DNA of 64,000 bases from Phycisphaeraceae bacterium D3-23 (GTDB taxonomy: Bacteria; Planctomycetota; Phycisphaerae; Phycisphaerales; Phycisphaeraceae): positions 3,410,001 to 3,474,000 of the forward strand of contig CP114179.1 of the NCBI GenBank assembly GCA_039555135.1, read 5' to 3'. The position numbers and the translations under genes were made by a program. The notes beneath the pieces are model-generated. The model searched no databases. It was given only the letters and a program-made list of their open reading frames with translations, and was not told the origin of the DNA. Position 1 is the first letter of the stretch. Every line of letters begins with the position of its first letter. Positions 3,258 to 37,523 of this stretch are shown here, piece after piece.

Positions 3258-4448
3258 TTAGCCCAGTTCTGCGTGGACGGCCGCGAACTGTTCGAGGGCG
3301 AAATCGAGGTCGTCAGTCTGATGGGCAGCGCTGATTTGTGTGCGGATGCGGGCCTTGCCCTGGGGGACGACGGGGAAGCTGAACGCGATCGCGTAGATGC
3401 CCCGCTGAAGCAGCTTGTCGGCAAACGTCGCGGCCTTGACCGCATCGCCGAACATGATCGGCACGATCGGGTGTTCGCCGGGCAGGGTGTCGAGCCCGAT
3501 CTTCGTGAGCCCTTCGCGCCAGTAGCGCGTGTTGGCTTCGAGCTTGTCGCGCAGGTTGGTCGAGCTGGAGAGCATGTCGAGGCACTTAATGGAAGCACTG
3601 ACGATGCTCGGGGCGACGGTGTTGCTGAAGAGGTAAGGGCGCGAGCGCTGGCGGAGCAGCTCGACGATTTCTTTCTTGGCCGAGGTGTACCCGCCCGACG
3701 CGCCGCCGAGCGCTTTGCCCAGCGTGCCGGTGATGATGTCGACACGGTCCATGACGCCGCAGTGCTCGGGTGTGCCCCGGCCGGTCTGGCCGACGAAGCC
3801 CACGGCGTGGGAATCGTCCACCATCACCAGCGCGCCGTACTTGTCGGCCAGGTCGCAGACGCCCTCGAGGTTGGCGATGTAGCCGTCCATCGAGAACACG
3901 CCGTCGGTCGCGATGAGTTTGTGCCGTGCGCCAGCCGCGACCGCCTCTTTGAGTTTGGTTTCGAGGTCGGCCATGTCGTTGTTCTTGTAGCGGTACCGCA
4001 TCGCCTTGCACAGCCGGACGCCGTCGATGATCGAGGCGTGGTTGAGCTCATCGCTGATGATGGCGTCCTCTTTGGTGAGCAGTGTTTCGAAGAGCCCGCC
4101 GTTGGCATCGAAGCAGGAGGTGTAGAGGATCGTGTCCTCCATCTTGAGGAACGCGCTGATTTTCTGTTCAAGGTCCTTGTGGATCAGCTGCGTACCGCAG
4201 ATGAATCGTACGGACGCGAGCCCGTAGCCCCAGTCATCGAAGCTGCCCTTCGCGGCGGCGATGATGTCGGGGTGGTCGGCCAGCCCGAGGTAATTATTCG
4301 CGCACATGTTGAGGACGGGCGTGTCGCTGCTCGTCACGCCGACGCGCGCGTCCTGGGGCGAGGTGATCACCCGCTCGTGCTTGTAGAGCCCGGCGTCCTT
4401 GATGTCGGAGAGGGTGGATTGGAGGTGCTGCTGGAAGTCGCCGTACAT
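3258..4448 (-). CDS. kbl: Glycine C-acetyltransferase (2-amino-3-ketobutyrate CoA ligase)
   Basis: This PLP enzyme cleaves 2-amino-3-oxobutyrate with CoA to glycine and acetyl-CoA, the second step of threonine breakdown after Tdh. Starting at ATG 4448 (MYGDFQQHL) it is 396 residues, close to the 398 of E. coli Kbl. Visible landmarks are the [10 protein letters not shown] entry, [10 protein letters not shown] and the PLP-lysine segment [16 protein letters not shown]. An in-frame ATG at 4502 lies inside the inverted repeat of the neighbouring cassette and is unlikely to be the start. The gene lies downstream of tdh on the same strand, but a GxxExxY cassette sits between the two, so co-transcription now has to read through it. 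Confidence 0.96.
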
Positions 4449-4461
4449 TTCTGGGGGGTCC

Positions 4462-4504
4462 TTTTTAACGCCAAGGTGCCAAGGGTAGGGAGAGGTAGCC
4501 AAGG
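4462..4504. repeat. Left inverted repeat of the GxxExxY cassette
   Basis: It starts with TTTTTAACGCCAAGG and continues as GCCAAGG-type words at 9-10-base spacing. It pairs with 4914-4956. The same word family recurs elsewhere in the window without the gene. Confidence 0.85.
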
Positions 4505-4510
4505 GGGAGT

Positions 4511-4906
4511 TTAGAAAGTGGGGTTGATGATGCGCTTGATGCCGTTTTTTAGGAGTAGGACGTTGAAGTTGATGAGTAGGCCGAGGTGGAGGTCCAGGCC
4601 TTTGAGGTACGCGAGGACTTGAGCAGAGTGGATCGGGGCGAAATGTTCGATGGCTTTGAGTTCAACGATCAGTGTGTTTTCAACGAGGAGATCGACACGT
4701 GACTCGCCGACGTCGATGCCTTCATAGTTCACTTGGAACCTGTGTTGCGCAACATAGGTAATCCCTTGTCGGGTCAGTTCCACACACATCGCCTTCTCGT
4801 ACACCGATTCCAGGTGCCCCGGGCCTAGGGTTCGATGTACCTCGATCGCTGCGCCGATTACGCGATGAGCCAATGCATCCACTTCTTCGCTCGGTTCCCG
4901 ACTCAT
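4511..4906 (-). CDS. GxxExxY family protein (PDDEXK_3 nuclease-like)
   Basis: This 131-residue protein carries the family signature [10 protein letters not shown] and a later D..ExK core ([16 protein letters not shown]), matching the PD-(D/E)XK nuclease-like fold assigned to GxxExxY proteins; no member activity can be inferred with certainty. Start ATG 4906 ([10 protein letters not shown]) is preceded by AAGGA that belongs to the right inverted repeat, so the repeat supplies the ribosome site. An ATG at 4933 would place nine extra residues inside the repeat. The length fits the family (about 125-130). The gene lies between tdh and kbl, with which it has no metabolic link, and it forms the whole cargo of the inverted-repeat cassette. 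Confidence 0.88.
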
Positions 4907-4913
4907 ACTTCTT

Positions 4914-4956
4914 CCTTGGCGACCTCTCCCCACCCTTGGCTCCTTGGCGTTAAAAA
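4914..4956. repeat. Right inverted repeat of the GxxExxY cassette
   Basis: This is the partner of 4462-4504 and ends five bases before the tdh stop codon. A 20-base piece of it (4933-4952) recurs identically at 14466-14485. Confidence 0.85.
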
Positions 4957-4961
4957 CCGAT

Positions 4962-5996
4962 TCACCAAGACAAAATCACCTTCCCGCACTGCCCCGACAG
5001 CATCGCGTCGAAGCCTTGCTGGTAGTCGTCGACGCCGAAGCGATGAGTGATGACGGGGGTGAGGTCGAGGCCGGACTGCACCATCGATGCCATCTTGTAC
5101 CAGGTCTCGTACATCTCTCGGCCGTAGATGCCCTTGATCGTGAGCATGTTGAAGACGACGGTGTTCCAGTCGATGGCCATGCCGGCTTCGGGGATGCCGA
5201 GGATGGAGATCTTCCCGCCGTGGGCCATGTTGGCGATCATGTCGGCAAACGCACGCGGGTTGCCGGACATCTCTAAACCGACGTCGAAGCCCTCGCGCAT
5301 GCCGAGTGTTTTCTGTGTCTGCGCGATCGAGGTCTGTGCGACGTTGACGATATGCGTCGCTCCCATCGTCGCGGCGAGGTCGAGGCGGTAGTCGTTGACA
5401 TCGGTGACGACGACATGCCTCGCGCCCGCGTGTTTGCAGATCGCCGCGGCCATGATGCCGATCGGGCCCGCGCCGGTGATGAGGACGTCCTCGCCCAGCA
5501 GGTCCCACTGCAGCGCGGTGTGCGTCGCGTTACCGAAGGGGTCGAAGATCGATGCGACGTCGCGGTCGATATCGCTGGGGTGCTCCCAGACGTTGGAGTA
5601 GGGGATCGCGATGTACTCGGCGAACGCACCCGTGCGGTTCACGCCGACGCCCTGGGTGTCCCGGCACAGGTGCCGCCGGCCGGCGAGGCAGTTGCGGCAG
5701 CGGCCGCAGATCACGTGACCCTCGCCGGACACGACCATGCCGGGCTTGAAGACGCTGACGTTGCTGCCGACTTCGACGATCTCGCCGACGAACTCGTGGC
5801 CGACGACCATCGGCACGGGGATCGTCTTGCTCGCCCAGGCGTCCCATTTGTAGATGTGCAGGTCGGTCCCGCAGATGCCGGTGCGGTCGACCTTGATGAG
5901 CACCTCGTTGATGCCGATCGTCGGCACGGGGACGTCCTGCATCCAGATGCCTTCTTCGGGCTTGGCTTTGACCAGGGCTTTCATCGTTTCAGGCAT
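4962..5996 (-). CDS. tdh: L-threonine 3-dehydrogenase
   Basis: This zinc-dependent medium-chain dehydrogenase oxidises threonine to 2-amino-3-oxobutyrate with NAD, feeding Kbl. From ATG 5996 ([10 protein letters not shown]) it has 344 residues against 341 in E. coli. The catalytic zinc site is shown by [13 protein letters not shown] and [12 protein letters not shown], the structural zinc loop by [15 protein letters not shown], and the nucleotide fold by [18 protein letters not shown]. The order tdh-kbl is the classical threonine-to-glycine operon, interrupted here by the GxxExxY cassette that begins five bases after the stop. An in-frame ATG at 6068 is too far upstream for the family. Confidence 0.97.
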
Positions 5997-6078
5997 GGCG
6001 GGGGCTCGGCGGGCGGTGGGGCGGATCGCGGAGTATAGCGGTGAGGCGTGGCCATTGTGGGCACACACCGATGAAACC

Positions 6079-6169
6079 TAACGCCAAGTCGCCAAGCCGC
6101 AAAGACGCCAAGGGGCACATAGATTTCCACCTCTTCTTGGCGTCTTGGCGTCTCTGCGTCTTGGCGTTT
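6079..6169. repeat. Gene-less inverted repeat of the CGCCAAG family
   Basis: About 33 bases at each end form an imperfect inverted repeat (roughly five mismatches) made of CGCCAAG and CGCAAAG words at 9-base spacing, around about 20 unrelated bases. Its words match the ends of the GxxExxY cassette at 4462-4956, but no gene lies inside. It sits upstream of tdh and of the leucine leader promoter. Confidence 0.7.
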
Positions 6170-6211
6170 TCTCCGGAGGACGGAGCGCGGCGAGCAGGGG
6201 GCAACTCAGCA

Positions 6212-6240
6212 TTGACACCGTACGCAGGCAGCGTTATCGT
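6212..6240 (+). promoter_or_regulatory. Sigma70-type promoter of the leucine leader
   Basis: A perfect -35 TTGACA (6212-6217), a 17-base spacer and a -10 TATCGT (6235-6240, four of six consensus) lie immediately before the leader peptide ATG at 6247. With the usual 6-7 bases from -10 to start, transcription would begin at or next to that ATG. Confidence 0.72.
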
Positions 6241-6246
6241 GCCCCC

Positions 6247-6330
6247 ATGCACCGCGACCTGCTCCTGACCGGCGACCTTGCAAGCGGCCTCCTCGGCCTG
6301 CTGCTTATCCATCCCGCCGGCCAGGGCTAA
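6247..6330 (+). CDS. leuL: Putative leucine leader peptide (27 aa, nine Leu)
   Basis: The short frame encodes MHRDLLLTGDLASGLLGLLL followed by IHPAGQG and TAA. Nine of its 27 residues are leucine, in runs LLL, LL and LLL. It lies between a good promoter and an intrinsic terminator, with leuA next, which is the classical layout of ribosome-mediated attenuation: stalling on Leu codons when charged leucyl-tRNA is scarce would prevent terminator folding. The ATG is only six bases after the -10 box, so the message would be leaderless or nearly so, and no Shine-Dalgarno is present. No database match is implied; the assignment rests on composition and layout. Confidence 0.75.
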   Translation: MHRDLLLTGDLASGLLGLLLIHPAGQG

Positions 6331-8760: not shown

Positions 8761-8778
8761 ATGCCGGGCAAGCGAACC

Positions 8779-8870
8779 GTGGGGCAGACATTCCTGTCTG
8801 CCATCCGGCGCAGCCGGAACGATACACCCTTTGGCCTTCGGCCAATGGCAGACAGGAATGTCTGCCCCAC
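8779..8870. repeat. Nested palindromic REP-like element
   Basis: Two perfect 25-base arms (8779-8803 and 8846-8870) beginning GTGGGGCAGACATTCC face each other. Each is followed inwards by its own small hairpin (8804-8818 and 8830-8844). The element fills the space between the methyltransferase and the acetyltransferase; a single-stranded copy would fold strongly. Confidence 0.88.
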
Positions 8871-8901
8871 GAGTGGGCAAAGCAATGGGAAGGAGTCATA
8901 C

Positions 8902-20076: not shown

Positions 20077-20099
20077 GGGCGTTGACGAGCAGTTTGAGT

Positions 20100-20165
20100 A
20101 GCCGGCGGCTTACGGACGCCGGACTCGGGCCGTACGATTGTTCCGGCGTCTGTAGGCCGCCGGCT
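20100..20165. repeat. REP-like palindrome after mlaD
   Basis: Two 24-base arms (about 20100-20123 and 20142-20165) beginning AGCCGGCGGC form an inverted repeat with two mismatches around an 18-base loop. It separates mlaD from the mutase homologue and may end the mla transcript. Confidence 0.8.
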
Positions 20166-20190
20166 GTTCAAGCGTCCTTTTGCGTGGGCG

Positions 20191-26221: not shown

Positions 26222-26470
26222 TTAGAACGAGGTAGAACGCGGCAATAACAAGGTAGAACGCCGCAAACTACCGGTAGAACAAGACAAACTACCGGTAGAA
26301 CGTGGCAATCTACCGGTAGATCACGGCAATCTACCGGTAGAACGAGGTAATCTACCGGTAGAACACGCCGATCTACCGGTAGTTCGCGCCTCATACTGGG
26401 TAGATCGCGGCTTCAATCAATCAGATCGTGACAGAAACGAGGTGAATCACCGCCAAGACAAGGTAGGACT
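26222..26470. repeat. 21-bp periodic dyad array 1 (CTACCGGTAG)
   Basis: Six perfect CTACCGGTAG palindromes start at 26268, 26289, 26310, 26331, 26352 and 26373, exactly 21 bp apart. The right half-site GGTAG continues in the same phase at 26231, 26252, 26399 and 26462 (GGTGA at 26441), giving 12 positions with one lost. The 11-base gaps vary but often read AAC-NNGGCAAT. Two helical turns separate the sites, so they face the same side of the DNA. No gene is seen from 26471 to 26566. Confidence 0.92.
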
Positions 26471-30782: not shown

Positions 30783-31076
30783 ATCAGTTACGCCGCGTAT
30801 CTAATCAGTTACGCCGCGTAACTCATCAGTTCTACCGCGTAAACGATCAGTTCCGCTGCGTAAACAATCTATTACGCCCCGGAACAGATCAGTTTCGGAG
30901 CGAAACTGATCTGTTCCGGGGCATCATCAATCTGTTACGCAGCGTAATCGATCGGTACCAGCGCATAAACAATCGTTTCCGCAGTGAAAACAATCAGTTA
31001 CAGCGCGTAAGCAATCGGTTCCGGGACGTAACCGATCTGTTACGCGGCGCATTCGATCTGTTACGCCATGGATGAA
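30783..31076. repeat. 21-bp periodic dyad array 2 (GTTNCG-CGNAAC)
   Basis: Fourteen units of exactly 21 bp start at 30783, 30804, 30825 and so on to 31056. All 14 begin ATC. Each carries a dyad centred on unit position 12, with arms at positions 5-10 and 14-19 of the form GTTNCG and CGNAAC. The arms differ between units (TTACG, TTTCG, TTCCG) but often stay complementary within a unit. No gene lies in it. Confidence 0.92.
30876..30922. repeat. 47-bp perfect palindrome inside array 2
   Basis: Arms of 22 bases (30876-30897 and 30901-30922) pair perfectly around GAG, covering repeat units 5 to 7. It starts GCCCCGGAACAGATCAG. It could extrude as a cruciform. Confidence 0.92.
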
Positions 31077-37347: not shown

Positions 37348-37523
37348 TAACCACGAAGGCACGAAGGGCACGAAGGGAGGCAGGGATCAGATTGGCCACG
37401 AAATGGCACATAACGCACAAGGAATGTGCCGTTCGATCCTGTTCTCAAGTTTGTGTTCTTTGTGCTTTTTCGTGGCTAGTTTCCGGCTTGTCTTCCTTCG
37501 TGTCCTTCGTGCCTTCGTGGTTA
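37348..37523. repeat. MITE-like 176-bp element, CACGAAGG family
   Basis: The ends (37348-37380 and about 37491-37523) form a near-perfect inverted repeat starting TAACCACGAAGGCACGAAGG. A second inner pair, GGCCACGAAA with its complement, lies further in. There is no gene inside. It lies between rimK and the AstE/AspA-family gene. Confidence 0.82.

Follow-up and report, generated by a model that had tools for sequence, protein, structure and literature searches.

A GxxExxY nuclease gene between iteron-built inverted repeats in the tdh-kbl spacer of a planctomycete: a candidate homing-like mobile element

The 495-bp unit that holds a GxxExxY gene between tdh and kbl in Phycisphaeraceae bacterium D3-23 is probably a homing-like mobile element with a Cas4-like PD-(D/E)XK nuclease that would recognise its own ends; its binding, cleavage and transfer are steps that we infer from sequence comparisons. 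Among 265 distinct GxxExxY genes whose flanking DNA could be read, which come from many phyla, 205 have inverted end pairs around them. The absence of such repeats around other family members, which a first-pass annotation of this DNA had named as speaking against its proposal, is thus not what is found. Our results suggest that the unit belongs to a widespread, undescribed element type.

Results

The unit between tdh and kbl

The window, that is, the whole stretch of 64,000 nucleotides that was analysed, comprises bases 3,410,001-3,474,000 of a 4.62-Mb single-contig genome. The unit and its neighbours are as follows.

4462..4956, no strand: whole element, 495 bp between tdh and kbl, with inverted arms at either end
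4462..4504, plus strand: left terminal inverted repeat, TTTTTAAC, then GCCAAG-type iterons reading inward
4914..4956, minus strand: right terminal inverted repeat, equal to the reversed left arm at 40/43 positions, upstream of the gene
4511..4906, minus strand: GxxExxY gene, 131 aa, PD-(D/E)XK fold, TIGR04256 and PF13366 above cut-off
4962..5996, minus strand: tdh (threonine dehydrogenase-like), intact upstream neighbour with zinc-dehydrogenase domains
3258..4449, minus strand: kbl (glycine C-acetyltransferase-like), intact downstream neighbour with an aminotransferase I/II domain

The two arms form an inverted pair of 43 nt (93% identity) with 409 nt between them. Their alignment score is 71, and no inverted pair with a score of at least 34 was present in three Markov-resampled windows. 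A single open reading frame of at least 80 aa, the GxxExxY gene, lies wholly between the arms; it starts most plausibly at the minus-strand ATG at 4906, and its product scores 141.5 bits against TIGR04256 GxxExxY (cut-off 35) and 140 bits against PF13366 PDDEXK_3 (cut-off 22). The unit lies 5 nt past the tdh stop and 12 nt short of the kbl ATG, and since its edges are outside both reading frames, tdh and kbl are both intact. AAGGA from the inner end of the 4914-4956 arm precedes the GxxExxY ATG, and the outer end of the 4462-4504 arm (TTAAAAAGGA) provides a similar ribosome-type site before kbl. Three claims of the first-pass annotation are borne out here, namely a 495-bp unit with a nuclease-like gene and 43-bp ends that match at 40 positions, the splitting of the tdh-kbl pair without damage to either gene, and the supply of a ribosome site by the right end.

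Each arm consists of CGCCAAG-type words at arm offsets 7, 15 and 35, the third 20 nt past the second. TTAAC precedes these iterons and fits a motif, TTMAC, that is often met at the ends in a set of 226 paired elements and lies outside the first word. The arms in this genome are iteron arrays and not simple repeats, because they are runs of one short word with a spacing of mostly 8-10 nt. Given the 409 nt between the arms and the blank Rfam result in 4200-6300, we rejected a reading of the arms as transcription terminators or a known RNA; a group I intron or other catalogued RNA host likewise had zero Rfam matches at gathering score in this region. Elsewhere in the window there are inverted repeats of a non-iteron kind, one of them perfect (27 nt, CGTGGGGCAGACATTCCTGTCTGCCAT, 8778-8871, 94 bp overall) and others with arms of 30-54 nt (20094-20171, 26287-26384 and 30844-30954).

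End pairs across the GxxExxY family

The 205 end pairs belong to two subsets, with 134 of 166 and 71 of 99 distinct proteins with flanks, and callable iteron words (at least three in the arms) were obtained for 175 elements, 120 and 55 in the two sets. Repeated proteins and fragments of less than about 95 profile positions are left out of these counts (from 189 loci, 170 proteins remained, and 166 of them had both flanks). No end pair above the threshold was found for 60 of the 265 genes, and 30 more are paired and have no callable words; L083 and L096 are examples of inverted pairs without iterons. Within the same taxonomic family, end-pair scores of at least 30 were reached at 30 of 33 loci (one of the 33, L040, has no upstream flank), compared with 0 of 124 nearby windows of equal geometry. 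In a scan of named genomes, based on the best 80 of 573 loci, the same score was reached at 57 of the 79 loci with both flanks and in 8 of 392 control windows. Together with the Markov-resampled windows, these controls rule out a chance origin of the end pairs. Paired loci span the alphaproteobacteria, acidobacteria, bacteroidetes, chloroflexi, cyanobacteria, verrucomicrobia, planctomycetes and others; among archaeal-labelled records, L145 (Methanosarcinales) has clear arms and L105 (Methanothrix) has none. When the 120 elements with long open reading frames on either side were compared for orientation, 75 were co-directional with both neighbours and 12 opposed to both, and the GxxExxY element is therefore probably transcribed by read-through from its neighbours.

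Iteron ends are present in four of six plasmid records, those of Fusobacteria (L066) and Persicobacter (L068) being without them. The plasmid-borne gene occupies the fabD-fabG gap in Sphingomonas and lies behind radA in Bacteroides, and its neighbours in Bernardetia are ade and a mannose-1-phosphate guanylyltransferase gene; the fourth iteron-ended record is an unannotated one from Gemmatirosa (L067), in which the gene is found between two complete solo repeats (1312-1396 and 1899-1982), an arrangement like that of a composite transposon. The Fusobacteria plasmid has a direct, not inverted, repeat (CAGATTTAATCCGTGTACCTAT) around the gene, near 1435 and 1892. An explanation as phage or plasmid cargo was rejected, with zero matches in phage records, zero in PHROG and only 6 in plasmid records. 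One alga virus is reported to have a GxxExxY gene (PMC12085832).

The iteron word

Read inward, the word is a 7-mer with the consensus C-R-C-N-R-A-K and a period of mostly 8-10 (149 callable elements, one of them a duplicate). Bases 1, 3 and 6 are nearly constant, and bases 2, 4, 5 and 7 differ between elements. Agreement within an element amounts to 94% at base 2, 87% at base 4, 96% at base 5 and 99% at base 7 (87-100% over all bases); the word is largely uniform inside an element and different between elements, even between paralogues of one genome. Both arms are alike and change together, the downstream arm included. Words of another form, e.g. CAGGAT (L010), TCGGAT (L031) and that of L041, are not callable. 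As word calling favours C-R-C-N-R-A-K, 15 of 164 training elements and 16 of 71 hold-out elements with ends are missing from the coupling figures given below.

A target-site duplication was looked for in 226 pairs at symmetric offsets of 0-25, where direct repeats of 3, 4, 5, 6, 8 or 9 nt were not enriched. A signal for 2-nt direct repeats at offset 0 (17 vs 4) probably stems from palindromic dinucleotides at the ends.

Fold and active site of the protein

The AlphaFold2 model of the window protein has a mean pLDDT of 95.7, and residues 10 and 13 lie in its first helix (residues 5-27). The residues of interest, numbered on the window protein (M1 at 4906), are encoded as follows.

4877..4879, minus strand: Asp10 codon, together with Ala13 coupled to iteron bases 4-5
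4868..4870, minus strand: Ala13 codon, coupled to iteron base 5
4808..4810, minus strand: Glu33, the E of GxxExxY; no variation among the aligned sequences
4691..4693, minus strand: Asp72, putative catalytic Asp, likewise without variation among the aligned sequences
4655..4663, minus strand: Glu82-Leu-Lys84, the ExK of PD-(D/E)XK, E and K invariant in the alignments made
4610..4612, minus strand: Ala99 codon; Asn at this position pairs with T at base 7 of the iteron, and other residues pair mostly with G

Glu33, Asp72, Glu82 and Lys84 are unchanged across 24 and 54 aligned sequences (rows with stop codons omitted). With its E...D...ExK site and its modelled fold, the window protein is assigned to the PD-(D/E)XK superfamily, and nuclease activity is predicted for it. 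In a comparison with PDB structures, the closest fold listed was that of SSO0001 (Z 9.6 over 101 residues, rmsd 3.6), a Cas4; Hjc and others were also among the fold matches, and those to the fdxN excision factor and the Vsr homing fold were within the common range. Foldseek gave a TM of 0.57 at E 0.009 and zero matches at E<=0.001, Cas4 profiles matched weakly (best E 8e-4), and a PDB sequence search matched no chain. A four-Cys iron-sulphur site is typical of Cas4. The window protein resembles Cas4 and RecB-like PD-(D/E)XK nucleases in this closest fold; unlike Cas4, it has just 131 aa and stands alone in spacers, and it is without the four-Cys site because it has a single Cys.

Enzymes of other mobile elements were looked for as well. 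Profile searches with the window protein gave no match to a Y1 (HUH) transposase. A DDE transposase is absent from the unit, where the only Pfam match of the gene is PDDEXK_3 and there is no other open reading frame of at least 80 aa. A Tn7-like (TnsA) reading finds no TnsB partner, a second frame of this length wholly inside 4462-4956 being absent.

Covariation between residues and iteron bases

The coupling between protein and word was analysed in 203 distinct elements, after removal of L167 (the same locus as L259). Thr at residue 13 goes with G at base 5 in 114 of 114 elements, Ala with A in 26 of 27 and Asn with A in 6 of 6, and Ser is mixed (29 A, 22 G). Residues 10 and 13 together go with bases 4-5, Asp10 and Ala13 with CA (14/14), Glu10 and Ala13 with GA (8/10), and Lys10 and Asn13 with AA (5/5). 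Asn at residue 99 goes with T at base 7 in 64 of 65 elements and other residues with G in 133 of 138; this coupling at base 7 tracks the protein clade. Coupling is weaker at bases 2 (best p 2e-3) and 4 (best p 5e-5, at residue 10). The window protein, with Asp10, Ala13 and Ala99, agrees with its word CGCCAAG.

In a contrast test made with the extended proteins and with alignment gaps excluded, residue 13 was changed in 87% of 52 disjoint pairs that differ at base 5 and in 23% of 91 background pairs (Fisher p=6e-14); the mean identities were 0.63 and 0.64, and the contrasting pairs were at least 50% identical. No other column went with base 5 as closely as residue 13 (p=3.4e-14, the next column 2.9e-4, one duplicate included). 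Residue 13 also stood out for base 5 among 116 proteins of less than 80% identity, where residue 99 was top for base 7. A rule written beforehand was applied to 55 callable hold-out elements, all less than 80% identical to the training set. It was correct at base 5 in 35 of 36 elements, where always predicting G scores 33 of 36, and at base 7 in 51 of 55, a number that the nearest training protein also reaches (51/55).

An artefact of arms that overlap the codons was ruled out. The codon of residue 13 overlaps the arm in no element, the closest distance being 3 nt, and setting aside the 29 of 204 elements with residue 10 near the arm left the coupling unchanged. Where residue 10 is clear of the arm, the pairings hold in 12 of 12 elements with Asp10 and Ala13 and in 7 of 8 with Glu10 and Ala13 (in a set including one duplicate). 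Direct recognition of the iterons by the protein would be the simplest reading of the coupling, and this covariation of residues and word argues that the GxxExxY protein very probably binds its own ends. The idea that the PDDEXK protein may act on its own repeats, put forward in the first-pass annotation, gains independent support from these amino acid/base pairings.

Paralogues and gene-free arrays in the same genome

The genome of the window has four GxxExxY genes, all between inverted ends (scores 71, 51, 48 and 66). Their end words are CGCCAAG (the window gene and L012), CACGAAG (L011) and CAGGAT (L010). A near-identical second copy of the window element is absent from this genome; of the three other genes, two match it, with identities of 72% over 99 bases and 77% over about 63 bases. 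Two gene-free elements lie in the window.

6080..6168, no strand: solo inverted-repeat element without a gene, 89 bp, iteron CGCCAAG, the type of the window GxxExxY element
37348..37523, no strand: gene-free inverted-repeat element, 176 bp, iteron CACGAAG, as carried by L011

CACAGAT arrays are also found in this genome, which has no resident gene with a CACAGAT word. Among the matches listed for it, GAT-type arrays lie at most about 90 nt from AG-type arrays at six places, one of them mixed (183012, 625792, 1451298, 1836141, 2000489 and 2502595), as if one element type preferred the inside of the other, perhaps a palindrome loop. The sequence CGCTGAGTCCGCGAAG occurs five times among the matches listed (525888, 804269, 1262283, 1310186 and 2153290), with a one-base variant at 709343, and is probably another dispersed repeat. 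At L012 (1408-1860) the longest GxxExxY reading starts upstream and would run through its own arm, with a repeat-coded N-terminal extension as the result.

Patchy distribution in relatives

The gene was found in 32 of 51 relatives and is thus patchy. A comparison of tdh-kbl spacers, proposed in the first-pass annotation, showed that not all relatives carry it at this place. The spacer of G019 is 124 nt long with no inverted repeat seen, and those of G016, G018 and G017 hold gene-free inverted repeats of the CACAGAG, CACGGAT and CGCCAAG types. A CACGAAG-type pair is present in G033 and a nested pair in G045; at 11 other loci the spacers are 12-87 nt long, and three loci have no kbl nearby.

Arrays were measured as whole-genome matches to three-word patterns, because random 20-kb samples are too sparse for solos; the genes' own arms are part of these counts, and an array with overlapping matches contributes to them repeatedly. 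The median was 53.5 in the 32 gene-positive and 1 in the 19 gene-negative genomes (p=8e-7), and 72.5 (n=22) vs 1 (n=11) in genomes that are at least 90% complete. More than four matches per gene were obtained in 29 of the 32 gene-positive genomes. A reversed-pattern control was nonzero at period 8 in some genomes (e.g. G047, G048, G033, G022 and G035) and gave 0-3 matches per strand at period 9. Gene-negative genomes with matches include five that are less than 90% complete (G005 with 19, G006 with 6, G030 with 34, G049 with 29 and G038 with 25), besides G008 (9), G036 (9) and G021 (3). Samples of 100 kb each from G000, G050 and G002 contained no iteron pair. G045 has 354 matches for 5 genes; a 257-kb sample of it contains 35 paired arrays and three concentric pairs of two word types. 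In samples of G042 (L231 15204-15340; L232 6597-7744 and 15272-15396), several inverted pairs are built of AAGCGAAG-type words, and the one GxxExxY gene fetched from this genome (L036) uses CACAGAG.

Turnover at a Flavobacterium site

We searched 199 Flavobacterium genomes with a locus between genes of the Sua5/YciO type and of the polyA polymerase/tRNA nucleotidyltransferase type. The whole unit matched in at least 47 genomes, and 30 filled loci were read, together with 20 other loci of the site picked by flank matches. L289 is a clean empty site, in which the flanking stop and start codons abut, and L300 holds a deletion derivative of the GxxExxY gene with intact ends. In 18 of the 20 other loci the spacers are 26-132 nt long, with no room for the gene, and many have other inverted repeats. 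Many of the spacers without GxxExxY in L290-L308 show inverted repeats of short reiterated words (AGTTTTC / AAACTTT, ATTTGAAA, GTCATTC...), which may be additional families of this kind.

On the flank tree, loci in the filled and in other states are intermixed. The identities of the left and right flanks correlate across the 30 site loci (r=0.65), and the element-flank Mantel r values are 0.087 (p 0.11) and 0.023 (p 0.35). At this one site, the similarity of the elements is uncoupled from that of their flanks, and the element comes and goes across species. Individual pairs illustrate this in both directions, L272 and L278 having proteins 98% and flanks 86% identical, and L263 and L286 having flanks 92% and proteins 75% identical with different iterons. 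With regard to co-conversion of the flanks, an identity of 93-100% runs into the left gene in the former pair, which it does not in three other compared pairs; in L262/L274 the similarity drops near the arms. A remnant arm of a different word adjoins the present element in L269 and L270, as if one element had succeeded another. In a tree of 68 rows, 30 of which come from this site, with L167 as a duplicate of L259 besides, the site elements group as a clade of their own. A rule of one site per protein lineage holds here and was rejected as a general one, as it fails in the family of the window, where one site can house several protein clades.

Discussion

The first-pass annotation had suggested a mobile or homing-like element, and the patchy presence, the empty sites and the uncoupling of element and flanks support this suggestion; that homing would be the route, and not another form of recombination, is something we infer. 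Empty alleles with intact flanks, as looked for in a homing element, were found at L289 and in tdh-kbl spacers, and spread uncoupled from host phylogeny at one Flavobacterium site (30 loci). In the mechanism that we propose, the GxxExxY protein would bind the 7-bp iterons of both of its ends, and the nuclease would cut or nick DNA at these ends or at a matching site in another allele. Host recombination would then install the element in a spacer. Gene-free copies may arise by internal deletion and may be kept or moved in trans. Several results speak against this mechanism, among them the negative result for a target-site duplication, the absence of a near-identical second copy in the genome, the 60 genes with no end pair above the threshold, the CACAGAT arrays with no resident gene of their word, and the pattern matches in some gene-negative genomes.

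The turnover at the Flavobacterium site could, at least partly, come from ordinary homologous recombination across the flanks. In a rival reading, such recombination between strains accounts for the same-site turnover, and GxxExxY and its iterons would be a resident host nuclease with old repeats, which serves the host (e.g. in regulation or DNA repair) or merely persists. Shared sites would fit, with 74 same-site pairs among 73 elements across genomes of the window's taxonomic family, and so would the missing recent copies inside the own genome and the 75 of 120 elements co-directional with both neighbours. We nevertheless consider this unlikely in view of the patchy presence (32/51 relatives), the clean empty site, the decay products, the paralogues with different iterons in one genome, and an element similarity that is uncoupled from the flanks and falls off near the arms in L262/L274.

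It has a lower probability still, and a small one, that another recombinase mobilises the iteron repeats and that GxxExxY is a passenger between two of them. Each arm of the Gemmatirosa plasmid element is itself a complete solo inverted repeat, and pattern matches far exceed genes in some genomes (354 vs 5 in G045), both of which would suit cargo. However, cargo would not be expected to have residues that covary with the repeat word or to occur together with the arrays, and the unit wholly contains no other open reading frame of at least 80 aa. An autoregulatory or toxin-like module, whose protein binds the upstream arm mainly to control its own expression, is highly improbable: that arm does lie just before the start codon and holds the ribosome site, but both arms are alike and change together, and gene-free inverted pairs and invariant catalytic residues would be left unexplained.

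The preferred reading of a self-recognising mobile nuclease invites comparison with known systems. I-Ssp6803I is an example of the PD-(D/E)xK homing class. Free-standing homing endonuclease genes include this class (PMC3943268). The GxxExxY element resembles them as a single small nuclease gene in an intergenic spacer that is patchy across alleles of a site, in its inheritance uncoupled from the flanks, and in its decay and loss. Unlike them, it has terminal inverted repeats that are built of iterons and seemingly read by its own protein, as well as gene-free copies with the same ends; no intron or intein was found with it. DDE insertion sequences with their MITEs have terminal inverted repeats and autonomous and non-autonomous copies. 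GxxExxY elements share both features and differ in having no DDE transposase and no detected target-site duplication (226 pairs, symmetric offsets). RAYT/REP systems consist of one nuclease gene (Y1, HUH transposase) between inverted cognate repeats, dispersed gene-free copies and the REP hairpin. A gene between inverted copies of its cognate repeat and dispersed gene-free copies are found here too, whereas GxxExxY is a PD-(D/E)XK nuclease, not Y1 (HUH), and its ends are direct iteron runs, not a REP hairpin. The papers found mention the GxxExxY family just in passing, and nothing that links it to repeats was found in a search with preprints and most subscription journals outside its range; matches to the repeat words look, among those listed, like primer coincidences.

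Whether the finding extends to the whole family is, in our judgement, evenly balanced. GxxExxY genes would then represent the autonomous members of a widespread and so far undescribed class of prokaryotic mobile elements, with a lone Cas4-like nuclease, no known recombinase and, in the first helix, a readable amino acid/base code for the 7-bp word that each end holds in several copies. Word and protein would diversify together, with orthogonal families living side by side in one genome and taking each other's place at the same intergenic sites, and the gene-free copies that they shed would account for a notable part of the dispersed intergenic repeats in planctomycetes, bacteroidetes and other phyla. 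This would give a nuclease family spread over many phyla a function and a testable mechanism, and common intergenic repeats of CCACAGAGG-, CCACGAAGG- and CGCCAAG-type words a possible origin. Such a nuclease, some 130 residues long and with a short amino acid/base code, would also be a new entry point to the evolution of sequence specificity, and if the code holds true in the test tube, specificity would be predictable from sequence.
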